64,000 nucleotides of DNA, from the NCBI RefSeq assembly GCF_000612545.2, contig NZ_CP097800.1, positions 4,007,001 to 4,071,000 on the forward strand. Direction: 5' to 3'. Both the position numbers and the translations under genes were made by a program. Below, one piece after another: positions 2,501 to 7,514 of this stretch. The number at the start of each line of letters is the position of its first letter. Positions within the stretch are counted from its first letter, which is position 1. The DNA is from Streptomyces sp. PCS3-D2. Lineage in GTDB: Bacteria; Actinomycetota; Actinomycetes; Streptomycetales; Streptomycetaceae. The notes below the pieces were generated by a model, which was given only the letters and a program-made list of their open reading frames with translations, was not told where the DNA came from and searched no databases.

Positions 2501-3508
2501 TCAGGCGGGCGGCCCGGACCGGGAGTTCGCCGGCAGTGTCCTCGTCATCTCCCGGGAGTTGCGCCAGGCATCGGACGGACCCGGTTCGGCGCGTACCGCG
2601 CGGGAACCGCTTCGTGGGGGGTCTGCGTCCGGGCGCGGGGTGCCGTGGAAGACCTGGCTGGTGTGCCAGGAGCGGTGGTGCGCCGCCACGGGGCGGACGC
2701 CCGGCTGCGGGCCGATGAGTGGACGGCCCGCGAGTGCTATGACGTGCGCGCGGGCGGCGGGGCTGTGTCCGATGAAGCGCTGCGAGACGAGGATGCGGTG
2801 GCCGTCGCCGACCCCGAGGACGCCCTTGTCGAAGAGCTTGTGGTGCAGCGCGCACAGGCACAGGCCGTTGTCGACCTCGTCGGGGCCGTCGAACGCCCAC
2901 CAGCGCACGTGCGCGGCCTCCAGCCCGACCGGAACCGTCCCGATCCGCCCGTCGTAGCCGCAGAAGGCGCACTGGTACTCGTAGGCCGTCAGCACCAGCT
3001 CCCGCATCCGCCGGTCCCTTTGCCGCCGCGCCGGAGACAGCACTCCGGTCTCCGCCGGCTCCGGCTCCAGGCCGATCGCTTCGCACAGTTCGCCGTGCAG
3101 GGAGGGCGGGAAGTGCAGGTCGAGCAGTACGCGCGCCATCCGGCCCAGCAGTGACGGCTCCCGCCGCAGTGCCGCCCGCAGTTCCGGCGCCAGCCGCCCG
3201 ACCGCCCCGGCCGCCCGCAGCTCCCGCACCGCTGGTCCGGGGCTGCCGGGCCCGCGGTCGGTGCGGACCTCCCACACGCCGTCGCCGGCCAGGTGGTGGA
3301 AGGGGTAGGCGGGCGTCGTCCTGTGGGGCGGGCCGTACTCGGCCAGCAGCCGCTTCAGGTCCTCCTCCACCGCGCTGTAGAGCAGTCCGCCGTCGGCATC
3401 CTGCTGGAACCTGCCGAGGGCGTAGAGGAGGAGCAGCGGTTTGTGGGGAGCGCGCGCCCCGCCTCTGGTCCACTGCCTCAGCGTCGCGGTCCGCTCCAGC
3501 CAGTCCAT
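2501..3508 (-). CDS. Phosphorothioate-DNA-dependent HNH restriction endonuclease (ScoMcrA/SprMcrA type)
   Basis: A 335-residue two-domain protein. Residues 1-150 look like the sulfur-binding domain of type IV restriction enzymes that recognise DnD-phosphorothioated DNA: an RAPHKPLLLLYAL segment at about 18-31 and a YPFHHL...DGVWEV segment at about 68-81. Residues 175-245 form an HNH nuclease: CxxC at 180-183, EAAH (H200), DNG (N214) and LHH (H222/H223). The last ~45 residues are a basic, disordered-looking tail. The expected role is cutting incoming modified DNA. No dnd genes are in the window, consistent with a restriction-only host. The family call is from remembered motif patterns; nuclease assignment is firmer than the sulfur-binding assignment. 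Confidence 0.75.
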   Translation of the reverse strand: MDWLERTATLRQWTRGGARAPHKPLLLLYALGRFQQDADGGLLYSAVEEDLKRLLAEYGPPHRTTPAYPFHHLAGDGVWEVRTDRGPGSPGPAVRELRAAGAVGRLAPELRAALRREPSLLGRMARVLLDLHFPPSLHGELCEAIGLEPEPAETGVLSPARRQRDRRMRELVLTAYEYQCAFCGYDGRIGTVPVGLEAAHVRWWAFDGPDEVDNGLCLCALHHKLFDKGVLGVGDGHRILVSQRFIGHSPAARAHVIALAGRPLIGPQPGVRPVAAHHRSWHTSQVFHGTPRPDADPPRSGSRAVRAEPGPSDAWRNSREMTRTLPANSRSGPPA

Positions 3509-3693
3509 GACCGGCGATCGTAGTGGCGCCGCGGCGAGAAGCCCGAAGCGAGCGGGATCGGAGAAGAGCCCGTCACGAGGCCGCGGCGGTGGGGTGGTTG
3601 CCGATCGCGGCGTGCACCCGTTGGCCCCGACGCTCGCCGCTCCCCAAGGAGCCTGGTGCGCCGCGAGAAATGTCGTGAATGTGGCAAGTGAAT

Positions 3694-3948
3694 GAGGCCG
3701 AAACTGAGATCAGGACATGCAGAAGACCCCGGCCGCTAGAGCGGTCCGGGGTCTTCGTTTCGCCTGTTCAGGCAACTGCGGAGGATACGAGATGCGAACT
3801 CGTGAGGGGTTGCCCCCCCCACACGCTTTCCCACTGTGCGTACGGGTGTCCGGCTGGAGTCGTACTCGTCCTGACCTGCGGCGAAGCGGTGTGATGGCCT
3901 CGGTCCGGATGGCCCTGGACGAAGGCGAATGCAACCAGAACCGCAACC
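3694..3948. repeat. Attachment-site scar C (tRNA-Ser 3' end plus terminator and arm-type repeats)
   Basis: This 255-bp block is organised like the genuine tRNA-Ser locus at 7055-7221. It has a GAGGCC-6 nt-GAGATC repeat (3694-3711), a strong hairpin (3720-3756, GAAGACCCCGG stem), then a copy of the tRNA-Ser(GGA) 3' part from the discriminator to the anticodon loop (3779-3831). Similarity to the tRNA stops there. A further segment shared with scar B leads to a GCAACC-AGAACC-GCAACC repeat (3931-3948). The tRNA copy has a T-loop change and extra Cs, so it is dead. It is read as an att site left by an element that integrated into the tRNA. Confidence 0.8.
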
Positions 3949-3957
3949 ACTGCCCGA

Positions 3958-4380
3958 CTACTTGCGGCTCTCCGGGCCGTACCACTGGAGGGGTTGGCCG
4001 GTGACCGCGGCGATGCACTCGAAGTCGTGGTCACGGTGCAGGAGGGTGAGGCCCTGCAACTCGGCGGTTGCGGCGACGACGAGATCGACTGCACCAGCGC
4101 TGCGGTGCTTGCCCTGTTTCGTGAGGGCCTCCTGTACCTGCCAGGCCCGGTCATAGGCCCGGTCGTCGACCGGGACCCAGCCGAAGATCAGCCGGACGTC
4201 CTCGATGCCCCGCGCTCTGTCGGCGGCCGATCGGGCGCTGTAGAAGAACTCCAGCTCCGTGATGGGGCATGTGGCGATCAGGCCGGCTGCTGCTGCCTGG
4301 TCCCAGCCGTACTGCTCCGCGTCGCCCCGCAGGAAGCGGGCGAGGGCGCTGGTGTCCATCAGGTAGAGAGCAGCGTTCAC
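3958..4380 (-). CDS. vapC: PIN-domain toxin, VapC family
   Basis: A 140-residue PIN ribonuclease, the likely toxin of a type II toxin-antitoxin pair. The acidic residues expected for Mg2+ binding are present: D9 in LMDTSALAR, E42/E44 in ITELE, D99 in AGAVDLVVAAT and D117/D119 in HRDHDFE. Length is normal for VapC. The GTG start (4380) overlaps the antitoxin stop as GTGA, so translation is coupled. In the family these enzymes cut tRNA or rRNA; the target here is unknown. The pair sits between two att scars, so it is cargo of a former integrated element. Confidence 0.88.
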   Translation of the reverse strand: MNAALYLMDTSALARFLRGDAEQYGWDQAAAAGLIATCPITELEFFYSARSAADRARGIEDVRLIFGWVPVDDRAYDRAWQVQEALTKQGKHRSAGAVDLVVAATAELQGLTLLHRDHDFECIAAVTGQPLQWYGPESRK

Positions 4381-4592
4381 CGTCGGTAGTTCCTCTTTTC
4401 CTCGAACAGCGTCAGGTCGAACGCGCCTTCGTCGGCCGCGGCGCGCAGGCGGGTCAAGGCCAGCGCGCGCCGCCTGTTCTCCAGTACCTCGCGCAGGGCC
4501 GTGTTGACCGTCTCCTTCTTGGTACTGGTCCCCAGAGCCTTGGCCACGTCCGCGACCAGCTCGTCATCGAGGTCGATCACCGTGCGACTCAT
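4377..4592 (-). CDS. vapB: VapB-like antitoxin
   Basis: A 71-residue protein read from ATG 4592 (MSRTVIDLDDELV). A longer reading from 4613 is possible, but this start matches VapB-family N termini. Residues 1-40 fit a ribbon-helix-helix DNA-binding unit (TVIDLDDELVADVAKALGT, then TVNTALREVLE). The C-terminal tail is charged and should wrap the toxin. It precedes and overlaps the PIN toxin gene. The A+T-rich stretch just upstream (4604-4640), with GTAT...ATAC half-sites, is a plausible autoregulatory operator, as is usual for such pairs. Confidence 0.85.
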   Translation of the reverse strand: MSRTVIDLDDELVADVAKALGTSTKKETVNTALREVLENRRRALALTRLRAAADEGAFDLTLFEEKRNYRR

Positions 4593-4865
4593 GGTACACC
4601 TCCTTGATATCAAGTATGGAGAAAACTATACCTCTCATAGGTCATCGCTGCGCCGTGTTCTCTTCCTCGTGGCTGCCGGGTGTCCACGGCAGGCTCGGGT
4701 GGAGGTTCCGGAGGGGTGAACGGGCCGCACTCCGTCAGGGTGGGGGTGGTGTCGGAATCTGCTCGGTGCGGGAGGGGCATCCGGATGCTCGTTGGCCGGG
4801 CATGAGGTGAAGCGCTCTCGACTCGGTGTGAGGCTATCGACATGCACCTTATGTCGGATATAAAC

Positions 4866-5118
4866 GCAACCAGAACTGCAACCAGAGCATGCCGAAGATC
4901 CGGACCGCATTCGGCGGTCCGGATCTTCGTTTCGCCTGTTCAGGCGACTGCGGAGGATGCGAGATGCGAACTCGTGAGGGGTTGCCCCCCACACGCTTTC
5001 CAAATGTTCGCACGGGGGTCCGGCGGGGGCCGTGGGCGTCCTGACCTGCGGCGGAACGTTCGGTCCAGACCCGTCCGAACACTCTCGGACGGAGGCGAAT
5101 GAGACCAGGACTGAGACC
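4866..5118. repeat. Attachment-site scar B (tRNA-Ser 3' end plus terminator and arm-type repeats)
   Basis: A 253-bp block almost colinear with scar C. It holds GCAACC-AGAACT-GCAACC (4866-4883), a perfect hairpin (4892-4928) and the tRNA-Ser 3' part from discriminator to anticodon loop (4951-5003). A segment homologous to scar C follows, ending in GAGACC-AGGACT-GAGACC (5101-5118). The hairpin stem differs in sequence from those of scar C and the real tRNA but still pairs fully. This suggests each copy once served as a working tRNA terminator. The tRNA copy carries a T-loop change and lacks the 5' half, so it is not a functional tRNA. Confidence 0.8.
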
Positions 5119-5164
5119 AGCCTGCCCCGGCTGCCGGTGATCACTGAGAGACGGACGAAGCCGG

Positions 5165-6238
5165 TCAGGTGGGTGAGGAATCCCGGCCTTGGAGCGCGTG
5201 CCCCGCGATTGCGGCGATCTGTTTGACCTGCTCTCGCAGCTGGACGAGTTCTGCGGTCTGTTGCCGTCCTGCCACGGTCTCGGACAGGGCGGCGATGACG
5301 GTTTCCTCGTGGTCGCCGGTGCCGAGCACCTGGGCGGAACGGCGGAGCAGGGCGGCGTTCACGCTGACCGAGTGGTTCGACTCCGGTGCCGACGGGGTGG
5401 TGGGCTCAGGGACCTGCCTGGCCTTGCGGAAGGATGCGGATGCTGCCGGAACAGGCGTGGGTTCGGCCGTCGGCGGGGGTTCGAACGCAACAGTGTCGGG
5501 GCTGCCGAGCACCGTGACCGCTGGCTTTCGGTAGCAGACGCCTCTCCCCGCCTTGGTCGTGTAGACGACGAGCTCCAGGGTGAGGTCACAGACGGCCGGG
5601 CCGTTGACCCGTTCCAGCGCGTCCGTCAGGTCGGAGAGCTGCGCGGCCATCTGCCACGAGTGCGTCATGAAGTGGAATGCGCCGAGCCCGGGTGCCGCTG
5701 CGATCCGGAAGGTGATGTCGACGCAGGGCATCGGGCCGCGCCCGTGCCGGGCTGCCAGCTTCCTGTCCTCAAGCAGTGGAGGGCAGCCGCAGGGCTGGCC
5801 CTTCTTCTCTTCCGGTGACAGGAGCTCCACGCCGTTGCAATCGTGGATGATGCCCGTACGGCCCCGGAGGACCATGTGTGCCGCCACCGCCTCGGGCCCG
5901 TTCATGAGAACGCGTACGCTCTCGCGGCTCGTCAGCACTTCGTAGGCAAGACCAGCCCCTCCTGTCCCTTCGTTCGGTTGAGGTTCGCCACCCAGGAGGT
6001 GGGCGACACGGGCGGCCACATCAGCATCGTCGGTGGTGACACGCCAGGCATCCAGAGCCTGGGGCAGCCCATCGGATATCCGCCCCGTGTGGAAGCGTCC
6101 GGCTCGGGCGGCTGAGCCAAACGGGCATCGCTGTCGCCGGCAGGCAGCGGCTGCCGCATCGCTGGCGCTGACTCGGCGGATGAGTCCCGTCGAAGCTCGG
6201 ATTCGGGTCGTTTCCGACCCTCTCCAGGGCCGTCCGGC
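5165..6238 (-). pseudogene. 5'-truncated phiC31 gp3-like recombination directionality factor family gene
   Basis: The first usable start is GTG 6019, giving 284 residues. The frame stays open to a stop at 6239-6241, and the upstream part still encodes family-like sequence: GRFHTGRISDG, then LDAWRVTTDDADVAARVAHLLGG. No ATG, GTG or TTG lies there, so the start of the gene has been lost. Further conserved-looking parts are GRTGIIHDCNGVELLSPEE, the Cys-containing GQPCGCPPLL, and LELVVYTTKAGR. I place it in the Gp3-like/recombination directionality family found on phages and integrative elements, where such proteins switch a serine integrase to excision. The C-terminal third is a Pro-rich linker plus a short coiled coil. 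Family assignment is from memory. Confidence 0.6.
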
Positions 6239-6291
6239 CTAGGGTGGTCTTCAGGCATGGGCCCGTGGAACACAGCGTGGAGGAGCCGATC

Positions 6292-6579
6292 ATGAGCACT
6301 GCCCCGAATCTGCCACTCCCGCCGCGCAGACCCGAGGAGTCCCATCCTCAGTCCCATCCGCTACGGACGATCCGGGAGATCCGGGAGTCTCTGCCCGAGC
6401 ACCAGCTCGGGCACTTCGATGCCGAGCTGGCCGACACGGACATCGATGCCTTGCCCGACATGCTTCACCGCTGGGCGACGCTGGGTAGCGACGGATTCCT
6501 TGAGCGGCTTACGGCGGCACCCTTCGAGGGTCTGGAGTTCGGCCGGCGGTCCTACGACGATGCGGCGGACGGCGAGTGA
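6292..6579 (+). CDS. Small acidic protein, probable antitoxin of the downstream PIN gene
   Basis: A 95-residue protein from ATG 6292, preceded by a GGAGG-type site at about 6279. It is acidic, with a Pro-rich N terminus and helical segments (IREIRESLPEHQL, FDAELADTDIDALPDML). I recognise no ribbon-helix-helix or AbrB fold. Its stop overlaps the GTG start of the PIN toxin gene (GTGA at 6576-6579), the usual arrangement for an antitoxin gene. The role is inferred from position and size only; the motif pattern could be a less common antitoxin class. Confidence 0.6.
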   Translation: MSTAPNLPLPPRRPEESHPQSHPLRTIREIRESLPEHQLGHFDAELADTDIDALPDMLHRWATLGSDGFLERLTAAPFEGLEFGRRSYDDAADGE

Positions 6580-7005
6580 TCTTTCTGCTCGACATCAATG
6601 TGGTCGCGGAGATCACCACCCGGCCGAAGCCCGCCCCGGCCGTCGTCGCCTGGGCTCGCTCGGTTCCGTCTCCTGCCCTCTACCTGAGCGTCATCACGGT
6701 CGCGGAGATCGAAGCAGGCATTGAGGGAACACCTGATCCGGTGCGGGGTACGGCTTTCGAGCGGGCGCTCACAGACATCCGAGATTCAGTACCGCGACCG
6801 GATCGCCGCCGTCGGCGAGCGGGAGGCACTCGCCTACCTCGCTCTTCACCGGAGGCTCAAGAGTGCCGGAACCAGCATCGATCCCCCTGATGCGCTGATC
6901 GCCGCCACCGCCCTGGCGAACGGCTGGACGCTGGTGAGCCGCAACATCAAGCATCTGGCGCGATCAGGCGCACTCCTGCTGAACCCTTGGGAGTACGAGG
7001 GGTAG
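6576..7005 (+). pseudogene. PIN-domain (VapC/FitB-like) toxin gene broken by a frameshift
   Basis: The first half is read from GTG 6576: MIFLLDINVVAEIT, then WARSVP, then LYLSVITVAEIEAGIE. This is a typical PIN start with the first Asp and the Glu. The second half continues in the +1 frame up to 7005 (LAYLALHRRLKSAG, then DPPDALIAATALANGWTLVSRN), which carries the later acidic residues. The shift falls between about 6750 and 6800. In the first frame the protein would end at 6890 with an unrelated Arg-rich tail. Either the toxin is inactivated or the assembly has a one-base error. The usual LLDTNVV motif also reads LLDINVV. Confidence 0.75.
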
Positions 7006-7054
7006 ATCATCCAGCCTGGAATGTGGCGAACTATCCGCTTTACGTCAAATAAAT

Positions 7055-7072
7055 GAGACCAGAACTGAGACC
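7055..7072. repeat. Arm-type direct repeat near tRNA-Ser
   Basis: GAGACC-AGAACT-GAGACC, a direct repeat with 12-bp period, 65 bp from the tRNA 3' end. The same motif occurs at matching distance in both scars (3694-3711 and 4866-4883) and on their far sides (3931-3948, 5101-5118). It is a candidate integrase arm-binding site. Confidence 0.5.
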
Positions 7073-7078
7073 GCGGAA

Positions 7079-7118
7079 CGACGAAGGACCCGGCCGCTGA
7101 GCGGTCGGGTCCTTCGTT
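7079..7118 (-). terminator. Terminator of tRNA-Ser
   Basis: A CGAAGGACCCG stem pairs with CGGGTCCTTCG around a GC-rich inner loop, just downstream of the tRNA on the minus strand. A T run on the + strand side (CTTCGTTTG) also allows action in the other direction. Confidence 0.7.
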
Positions 7119-7136
7119 TGCCCTGGTGGGCGAGTG

Positions 7137-7221
7137 CGGAGGATACGAGATTCGAACTCGTGAGGGGTTGCCCCCAACACGCTTTCCAAGCGTGCGCCCT
7201 AGGCCTCTAGGCGAATCCTCC
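7137..7221 (-). tRNA. tRNA-Ser (GGA)
   Basis: An 85-nt class II tRNA: acceptor GGAGGAT/ATCCTCC, anticodon stem CACGC/GCGTG with loop TTGGAAA (anticodon GGA at 7185-7187 on the complement), a long variable arm and GTTCGAATC T-loop. CCA is not encoded. It is the target of repeated site-specific integration, as shown by the two partial copies at 3779-3831 and 4951-5003. Confidence 0.95.
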
Positions 7222-7344
7222 GCCGCAAACAATACAAGACGTGGAGGGGTGCTCGCGAACGTGATCGTTCGGAGGGGATCCGGCGGGGTCGGCTCGGGGG
7301 GTGGGGGCGCGGGCGGGGTCGATACCGGGGGCGTGGATCCGCTA

Positions 7345-7440
7345 GGGTGGGGCCCAGCCCCTCACGTGGCGCTATCTCACCCAACTCCCCCAGGGCCGGA
7401 AGGCAGCAAGGGTAAGTGGGCTCTGGCGGGTGCGTGGGGG
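7345..7440 (+). ncRNA. ffs: Signal recognition particle RNA (small bacterial type)
   Basis: The segment CAGGGCCGGAAGGCAGCAAGG (two overlapping conserved parts at about 7392-7411) carries the GGAA tetraloop and asymmetric internal loop that bind Ffh. Flanking GC-rich arms (CCCAGCCCCTCACG and GCGGGTGCGTGGGG) form the long helix. The RNA is the scaffold of co-translational membrane targeting. Its place directly upstream of dnaX is conserved in actinobacteria. The ends are approximate. Confidence 0.88.
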
Positions 7441-7514
7441 GCGCTTTGCGTTCCGGAGGCCTGCGCGGCGCCGGCGGGCCGCCGCTGTCGGTGGGCCCGG
7501 ATAACCTCGTAGAC

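Follow-up and report, generated by a model that had tools for sequence, protein, structure and literature searches.

A probable tandem stack of small integrase-free elements at a Streptomyces tRNA-Ser(GGA) gene, and covariation of arm-site alleles with integrase N-termini

Introduction

Integron arrays are built of small integrase-free cassettes, often holding toxin-antitoxin genes, that are inserted by a recombinase encoded elsewhere. Tyrosine integrases of elements that enter tRNA genes bind their arm sites by a β-sheet of the N-terminal domain. We report here on the tRNA-Ser(GGA) gene of Streptomyces sp. PCS3-D2 and on the displaced copies of its 3′ half beside it, in a stretch of 64,000 nucleotides (assembly GCF_000612545.2, contig NZ_CP097800.1, positions 4,007,001 to 4,071,000 of the forward strand; hereafter the window, numbered from its first letter), where small elements have very probably accumulated in tandem.

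Several described systems come close to this locus. Cis-mobilisable elements (CIMEs) and their tandem accretion are established for the ICESt1-related elements of Streptococcus thermophilus (PMC5704250). In Streptomyces itself, accretion of actinomycete integrative and conjugative elements (AICEs) at a tRNA-Arg gene resembles our locus in that several elements and an old remnant lie between direct repeats at one tRNA gene (PMC9513070). Arm binding by the integrase N-terminal domain is supported by work on four Cluster K1 mycobacteriophages, in which arm base 7 (T or G) covaries with two N-terminal residues (PMC3203893). The present locus differs from these systems in several respects. Most of the elements sampled here are integrase-free and form recurrent defence or toxin-antitoxin cassettes in many species, and their ends are paired by arm alleles, unlike in the described CIME accretion (PMC5704250). 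The tRNA-Arg AICEs were identified by traB, replication and integrase genes, arm sites and alleles not figuring in the text consulted (PMC9513070), whereas here neither an integrase nor a transfer gene turned up among those open reading frames (ORFs) of the inserts that were tested. Where four phages yielded candidate residues (PMC3203893), we compare 96 integrases at two base positions, with several switches on a tree and checked predictions. The window thus holds a known kind of structure, accretion itself being already known. New, as far as searches of the open-licence literature show, are an arm-allele pairing that resolves a stack, a recurring integrase-free cassette class at this tRNA and a family-wide code; among the papers listed by these searches we recognised no account of an arm-recognition code on this scale or of cassette arrays at this tRNA.

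Results and discussion

Arm sites resolve the locus into three elements

The 3′ part of tRNA-Ser(GGA), the one tRNA that ARAGORN detects in the first 15 kb, is present three times in a single orientation, in the gene and in two displaced halves (Table 1), as an initial annotation made from the letters of the window had claimed. These two are the only extra significant copies in the 7.63-Mb genome, the next match having an E-value of 0.12. Their identity to the gene spans the anticodon loop (TTTCCAA on the + strand, 7183-7189 in the gene) and breaks off in the anticodon stem, at its 5′ half, which agrees with the annotation's placing of the break at this loop. Downstream of its tRNA part each of the three copies has its own hairpin, again as annotated, but full pairing holds for that of block 2 and for neither of the others, and the name terminator is owed to position and stem strength only, a real T run being absent after all three in the tRNA direction.

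The annotation overlooked the arm-type sites, direct repeats with a period of 12 bp, that bound each displaced block; its block limits were right to within one base because they coincide with these repeats. With up to 2 mismatches allowed, arms of the TGAGACC type occur in the 64 kb at 3693, 5100 and 7054 only (3 against 0.50 expected, sd 0.69, a count reached in 1 of 100 shuffles), and arms of the TGCAACC type at 3930 and 4865 only (2 against 0.25 expected, at least 2 being found in 3 of 100 shuffles). Their alleles match across the inserts, 3930 with 4865 (TGCAACC, element E1) and 5100 with 7054 (TGAGACC, element E2). Since an entering element pushes the old 3′ half leftwards and adds its own B side, the two ends of an element are found in neighbouring blocks, its B arm in one and its A arm in the next, and the A arm at 3693 therefore marks a third, older element, E0. 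The annotation had read two scars of successive elements; the succession stands, the number rises to three because the leftmost block has a degenerate A arm of its own. That successive integrations each brought a replacement tRNA end, with the newest next to the gene, is independently supported by the allele pairing. Arm mismatches also fall from the oldest to the newest element, from 2 in E0 through 1 and 1 in E1 to 0 and 0 in E2, in line with this order. An identity block that reaches from the 3′ end of the tRNA as far as its anticodon loop, with arm repeats on both sides, is the att anatomy of a tRNA-targeting tyrosine integrase.

We consider it very likely that the locus is a tandem stack of small elements which entered the anticodon loop of tRNA-Ser(GGA) in succession, through tyrosine integrases of other elements, as integrase-free CIME-like cassettes whose arm allele is tied to the integrase N-terminus. 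In the attP of each, an A arm would be followed by the hairpin, the tRNA 3′ half, the crossover, the P′ region and a B arm. By entering, an element would supply the tRNA with a fresh 3′ half and hairpin and shift the old ones leftwards, so that each displaced block is a hybrid of an older A side and a newer B side; E0 would be the oldest arrival, followed by E1 and then by E2 beside the tRNA.

Both displaced halves share a T-loop change from TTCGAA to TGCGAA (+ strand) at 3794 and 4966, which is found in 4 of 165 distinct displaced blocks (twice in the window and in loci L093 and L136) and could be explained by gene conversion between scars or by a shared attP variant.

Table 1. Features at and beside the tRNA-Ser(GGA) gene, in window coordinates; hairpins are scored by fold z, and element limits are approximate.
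Feature	Positions	Strand	Basis or remark
A arm of E0, degenerate TGAGACC type, 2 mismatches	3693-3711	+	TGAGGCCGAAACTGAGATC
B arm of E1, TGCAACC type	3930-3948	+	TGCAACCAGAACCGCAACC
A arm of E1, TGCAACC type	4865-4883	+	CGCAACCAGAACTGCAACC
B arm of E2, TGAGACC type	5100-5118	+	TGAGACCAGGACTGAGACC
A arm of E2, TGAGACC type	7054-7072	+	TGAGACCAGAACTGAGACC
Displaced block 1	3693-3949	+	E0 A arm, E0 hairpin, tRNA 3′ half, P′ region, E1 B arm
Displaced block 2	4865-5118	+	E1 A arm, E1 hairpin, tRNA 3′ half, P′ region, E2 B arm
Displaced tRNA 3′ half, block 1	3778-3833	-	sequence match, E 4e-17
Displaced tRNA 3′ half, block 2	4950-5003	-	sequence match, E 4e-20
tRNA-Ser(GGA), functional target gene, 3′ half supplied by E2	7136-7221	-	ARAGORN
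Terminator-like hairpin, block 1, one bulge	3722-3756	-	z -4.89
Terminator-like hairpin, block 2, fully paired	4894-4928	-	z -7.43
Terminator-like hairpin of current tRNA gene, supplied by E2, one stem mismatch	7083-7115	-	z -5.96
Element E1, crossover to crossover, ~1.17 kb	3834-5003	+	arm pairing
Element E2, newest, crossover to crossover, ~2.19 kb	5004-7189	+	arm pairing; relatives in L236, L221, L248, L098
E1 vapC toxin, intact frame, directly inside B arm	3958-4380	-	PF01850, E 6.5e-14
E1 vapB antitoxin	4377-4592	-	PF09957, E 3.7e-12
E2 Gp3-like / recombination-directionality-factor (RDF)-like protein	5165-6019	-	PF18897, E 1e-7
E2 small protein directly before PIN gene, antitoxin-like by position only	6244-6579	+	recurring cluster C8
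E2 PIN-domain (VapC-like) toxin gene, split in two frames	6576-7005 (6576-6890, 6721-7005)	+	PF01850, E 0.074 and 9e-7
Phosphorothioated-DNA restriction endonuclease (HNH)	2501-3508	-	NF045808, E 5e-100, 334 bits against cut-off 180
Small SRP RNA beside tRNA-Ser gene	7353-7451		

Integrase-free cassettes recur across the genus

The tRNA region (window 7040-7240) is matched in 294 of 296 Streptomyces genomes, our own included, and a displaced-core query (E ≤ 1e-3) in 104 of the 296. Eighty stretches were fetched in a first survey, most chosen for a displaced-core match, so the frequencies given here are not prevalences. With the window added (81 stretches, some being halves of one locus) 24 have no displaced core, 35 have one, 13 two and nine three. 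Comparison of the site in relatives, as the annotation had advised, thus turned up single occupancy, multiple occupancy and sites without recognisable arms. Among the 165 distinct displaced blocks that have a B arm, 136 keep the tRNA 37-mer exactly. Arm alleles pair element ends beyond the window: the two ends match in 36 of 49 de-duplicated elements against 19.5 expected, a value reached in none of 20,000 permutations, and concordance between two allele groups in the 45 elements of the first genome set gives a Fisher p of 2.7e-6. Near tRNA-Ser, L022 and L146 (genome G202) have a hybrid A arm of one TGAGACC and one TGCAACC copy, possibly an intermediate between the alleles.

Taking as an element any stretch between two detected cores in fetched sequence, a definition that under-represents large elements, we obtained 96 elements between neighbouring cores, of median length 3.8 kb and in 68 cases under 5 kb. 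No integrase, meaning no ORF of at least 60 residues that matches a seven-sequence HMM at 1e-4, was found in 79 of them; 12 hold fragments and five a full gene. Among the 50 with TGAGACC or TGCAACC arms on both ends, 48 are free of any integrase trace. Their contents recur: vapBC with a Helicase_C_3 protein at five loci (TGAGACC arms at three, TGCAACC arms at two) and, among others, toxin-antitoxin genes with phosphorothioate restriction and Helicase_C_3, and cassettes of the same content, bounded at the arms, are found across species and stack positions.

We compared cassette identity with that of the host flank (coding, non-coding and ffs sequence) on the side of the gene beside tRNA-Ser that, from sequence likeness, we take to be dnaX. 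Both values are available for 22 homologous pairs; the cassette is the more alike in 16 of them, and in seven by more than 5 points: L190/L112 (98.2% against 82.9% for the flank), L190/L082 (93.1 against 81.8), L088/L135 (94.9 against 84.2), L074/L193 (97.8 against 88.1), L219/L135 (91.8 against 83.0), window E2/L236 (92.5 against 85.1) and L088/L219 (91.7 against 85.0). Cassettes that are more alike than their hosts' flanks indicate that at least some have spread horizontally as bounded units, and the recurrence of cassettes that lack an integrase speaks for a durable integrase-free class; the annotation's word scars is therefore too weak for a locus type in which many such inserts are recurring cassettes, some clearly interspecies. 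E1 and E2 would be members of this widespread att-flanked class, with its toxin-antitoxin, phosphorothioate restriction and Helicase_C_3/WYL proteins, and the cassettes would most likely be mobilised in trans by larger elements with the same arm allele.

A protein of 780-850 residues (L112:11079-13412 and relatives; Helicase_C_3 and WYL in the member scanned) recurs in the cassettes, often beside toxin-antitoxin pairs. A cysteine-rich protein of 420-440 residues ends directly before TGCAACC A arms (L079:16807-18066, L097:16558-17880, L108:13532-14824); L079 and L108, the two scanned, match CoiA_nuc weakly, above the cut-off in L108 only.

Arm alleles covary with the integrase N-terminus

Larger elements at the tRNA-Ser site carry tyrosine integrases (PF00589). 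Those with TGAGACC and TGCAACC arms are closely alike when aligned and differ in an N-terminal motif, I[YF]xGxDG-X1-WHG-X2-V, which the arm allele would follow, WHG-R-V going with TGAG.. and WHG-Y-V with TGCA.., while a second residue (DG-X1-WHG; R/K/Y) and a third (RRHV-X3; S/E/K/M) would track bases 7-8. A first set of 56 was left from 89 genus integrases once 20 with a WHAR..PMG motif and another repeat, and 13 without a recognisable arm in the fetched stretch, were set aside. A second set comprised 40 later integrases, 33 from sister genera and seven from Streptomyces, giving 96 with an arm beside the att core. A arms of the first set were mostly sought among known alleles, an adjacent direct repeat being taken in a few; in the second set any 7-base direct repeat was accepted whose two copies both read G at base 2, with no more than 1 mismatch, the arm copy being chosen among those starting TG or CG.

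The fit at arm bases 3-4 extends to 95 of the 96 integrases, X2 = R going with AG in 63 of 64 and X2 = Y with CA in 32 of 32. At bases 7-8, X1 = R goes with CA in 37 of 38 cases, X1 = K with GG in 31 and CC in 9 of 42, and X1 = Y with T at base 7 in 12 of 12; as to X3 and base 7, E goes with G, M with T and S mostly with C. The motif was not merely picked by eye, since a weighted scan of the well-filled integrase columns (effective n 21.9) places X2 at the top for bases 3-4 (nMI 0.942, the next column 0.374) and X1 and X3 first and second both for base 7 and for bases 7-8. Residue 2 of the motif (Y/F) was dropped as part of the code, Y occurring with both arm types in the second set.

Predictions agree with this picture. 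The TGCAACT arm of genome G028 was forecast correctly from its integrase before the contig was read. For the second set the rule, fixed on the 56, was written before the arms were read: bases 3-4 were correct in 40 of 40, base 7 from X3 in 34 of the 35 with an X3 seen before, and the 7-mer, in at least one repeat copy, in 36 of the 37 predicted, three cases with X1 = N having no prediction. A tree of the integrases minus their N-terminus calls for at least 7 changes of X2 and at least 6 of arm bases 3-4; independent pairs for X1 are few, with none opposed. These covariations suggest that X1, X2 and X3 may contact the arm directly. A PDB sequence search with the N-terminal profile gave no meaningful match. 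By the same code E2 and E0 would have been moved by an R-type and E1 by a Y-type integrase.

As to possible carriers, viral contigs hold no exact match to a 19-base pattern of the displaced core, and their integrase relatives comprise one at 55% and six at 24-26% identity. The best phage relative among the matches listed reaches 45%; among those listed for plasmids the best-covering one has 48% over 68% of the query (Saccharopolyspora endophytica), and one further record, beyond those listed, has a match of 60-80% identity. No autonomous phage or plasmid of the same close integrase family was identified among the matches listed.

The class set aside for its WHAR..PMG motif (L103, L340, L369 and 17 other loci; 20 of 89), which also uses this tRNA, has the repeat GGACAAARACCAGGACAA, which in 18 of 20 overlaps the end of the integrase's own gene.

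Weighing other origins of the locus

An ordinary segmental duplication, in which the 250-bp tRNA 3′ region was copied twice with no integrase, would give three direct-orientation copies and would accommodate the T-loop change common to both displaced ones, but it explains neither the stop at the anticodon loop nor the P′ region and B arm, which the tRNA copy lacks, nor the same anatomy in many other genomes, and it is contradicted by two arm alleles that pair across the inserts; we find it scarcely credible. A weightier contender, if in our judgement still an unlikely one, is plain decay, by which E0, E1 and E2 were full integrative and conjugative elements (ICEs), AICEs or prophages that independently lost their integrase and transfer genes and kept both att ends, as textbook CIMEs never mobile without an integrase of their own. 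CIME formation is the standard account of such tandems (PMC5704250), AICE decay in Streptomyces is documented (PMC9513070), and decay would fit the broken toxin frame of E2, the left end of E0 that was not found and the integrase fragments in 12 of 96 elements. It does not sit well with arm-bounded cassettes whose content is repeated from species to species and from one stack position to another, with the 7 of 22 cassette pairs that exceed their host flanks by more than 5 points, or with the 48 of 50 elements with these arm alleles that lack even fragments. Nor does the position of the integrase gene help it: among 22 genus integrases with TGAGACC, TGCAACC or TGCAACT arms, the gene of 20 ends 1.4-8.8 kb before the tRNA core (L333 and L334, at 85 bp, being the others), so that one small deletion would not remove the gene and spare the arms. 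For the TGAGACG and TGAGACT classes, 24 of 28 integrase genes end no more than 100 bp from the core, and some genes of the second set lie only 82-125 bp away.

A stack of cassettes moved by integrases of other elements is the reading we prefer, and several observations weigh against it. Neither excision nor a circular form nor movement was observed. Unlike alleles stand at the two ends of 13 of the 49 elements; six of the 13 combine a TGAGACC-type B arm with a TGAGACG or TGAGACT A arm, and discordant ends may also reflect chimeras or hidden or missed blocks. The cassette is less alike than the flank in 6 of 22 pairs, namely L074/L085 (76.1% against 83.6%), L193/L085 (76.1 against 86.1), L093/L232 (81.6 against 83.6), window E2/L096 (82.1 against 85.7), L236/L096 (82.8 against 84.1) and L082/L102 (93.2 against 94.1). 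On the side of the code, L424 misses base 7 and is the sole 7-mer failure; the supported independent branch pairs that differ in X2 number only four (three follow, none opposes, one shows no difference), too few for significance by themselves; and L302 (genome G057) has an R integrase beside a TGCAACC A arm. The same genome has a TGAGACC B arm in a distant displaced block (L111), a nearer block lying outside the sequence read, and this arm would fit L302 as a chimera.

Stacking and the capture of cassettes

To the tandem stack we add, with rather more doubt than belief, the proposal that arm alleles are compatibility groups and that stacks form mainly between unlike elements. To integrases that share the arm type of a resident, its A arm would turn the tRNA into an apparent attL, whereas to others the tRNA would still pass as attB. 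The junction in the window, older TGCAACC against newer TGAGACC, conforms to this, as do same-allele neighbours within a block, at 9 of 40 against 14.0 expected (P 0.048) or, with up to 2 mismatches, 13 of 61 against 20.0 (P 0.022). The deficit is less marked with two allele groups (15 of 40 against 19.5, P 0.13), with TGAGACC and TGCAACC only (9 of 26 against 13.1, P 0.10) and over all loci (10 of 46 against 14.9, P 0.06); like-on-like junctions do occur, and junctions from the same region are not fully independent. A neighbour rule that looked strong in a hand count is after permutation only suggestive, and exclusion between like neighbours stays a hypothesis with P of 0.02-0.13. If arm alleles do govern stacking, a simple exclusion rule would apply to mobile elements at one tRNA.

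More broadly, tRNA-Ser(GGA) of Streptomyces and sister genera may be an integron-like capture site, a view to which we give somewhat less than an even chance: integrase-free defence and toxin-antitoxin cassettes would travel between species, their arm allele being read by the N-terminal code of a helper (X2 for bases 3-4, X1 and X3 for bases 7-8), and the alleles would be compatibility groups that decide both helper and stacking. Like integron cassettes, those described here are small integrase-free units in arrays, with a recombinase that presumably comes from elsewhere. They differ in that the att site has arms on both sides of a tRNA-derived core, the tRNA gene is restored and the newest element lies at the tRNA, and the presumed helpers carry an integrase of phage or ICE type; the comparison is one of att anatomy. 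Were the capture-site view true, scars without an integrase would still reveal which integrase made them. Arm alleles make scars readable, giving end pairing, the number of elements and the probable integrase type of each. A residue-base code would make the arm specificity of this integrase family predictable from sequence and would aid the design of orthogonal integration systems and the matching of orphan cassettes to helpers.

Cargo of the three elements

The annotation's statement that no integrase remains is borne out for the locus: PF00589 occurs at seven places in the genome, the nearest ~170 kb from the tRNA-Ser gene, and the integrase family that uses this site has no match in the genome at 1e-70. 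The integrase and transfer genes that mark an AICE or ICE are thus missing from the inserts, as far as the neighbourhood of the locus (integrase) and the seven ORFs tested by Pfam (transfer genes) show. They resemble CIMEs in that E1 and E2 have ends of attL/attR type, with a core and matching arms at both, E0 showing its A side alone, and in that the seven ORFs gave PIN, VapB, Gp3-like and HNH_2 matches by Pfam and thus no integration or conjugation gene, no search having been aimed at the latter.

E1 carries a VapBC pair, with a PIN toxin, a VapB antitoxin gene just upstream and ORFs that overlap by 4 bp; the toxin scores under the cut-off of NF047959. In E2 the Gp3-like/RDF-like protein has no NCBIfam match and the small protein before the PIN gene no Pfam match, and the PIN toxin, split in the window, is a single intact frame in the relatives L236, L221 and L248. 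The left end of E0 was not found. The restriction endonuclease at 2501-3508 is probably its cargo, because a relative in L096 sits inside a bounded cassette, ~110 bp from the A arm. Genes for phosphorothioated-DNA restriction endonucleases lie around tRNA-Ser, in or beside cassettes, at 26 loci, 23 without evident duplicates.

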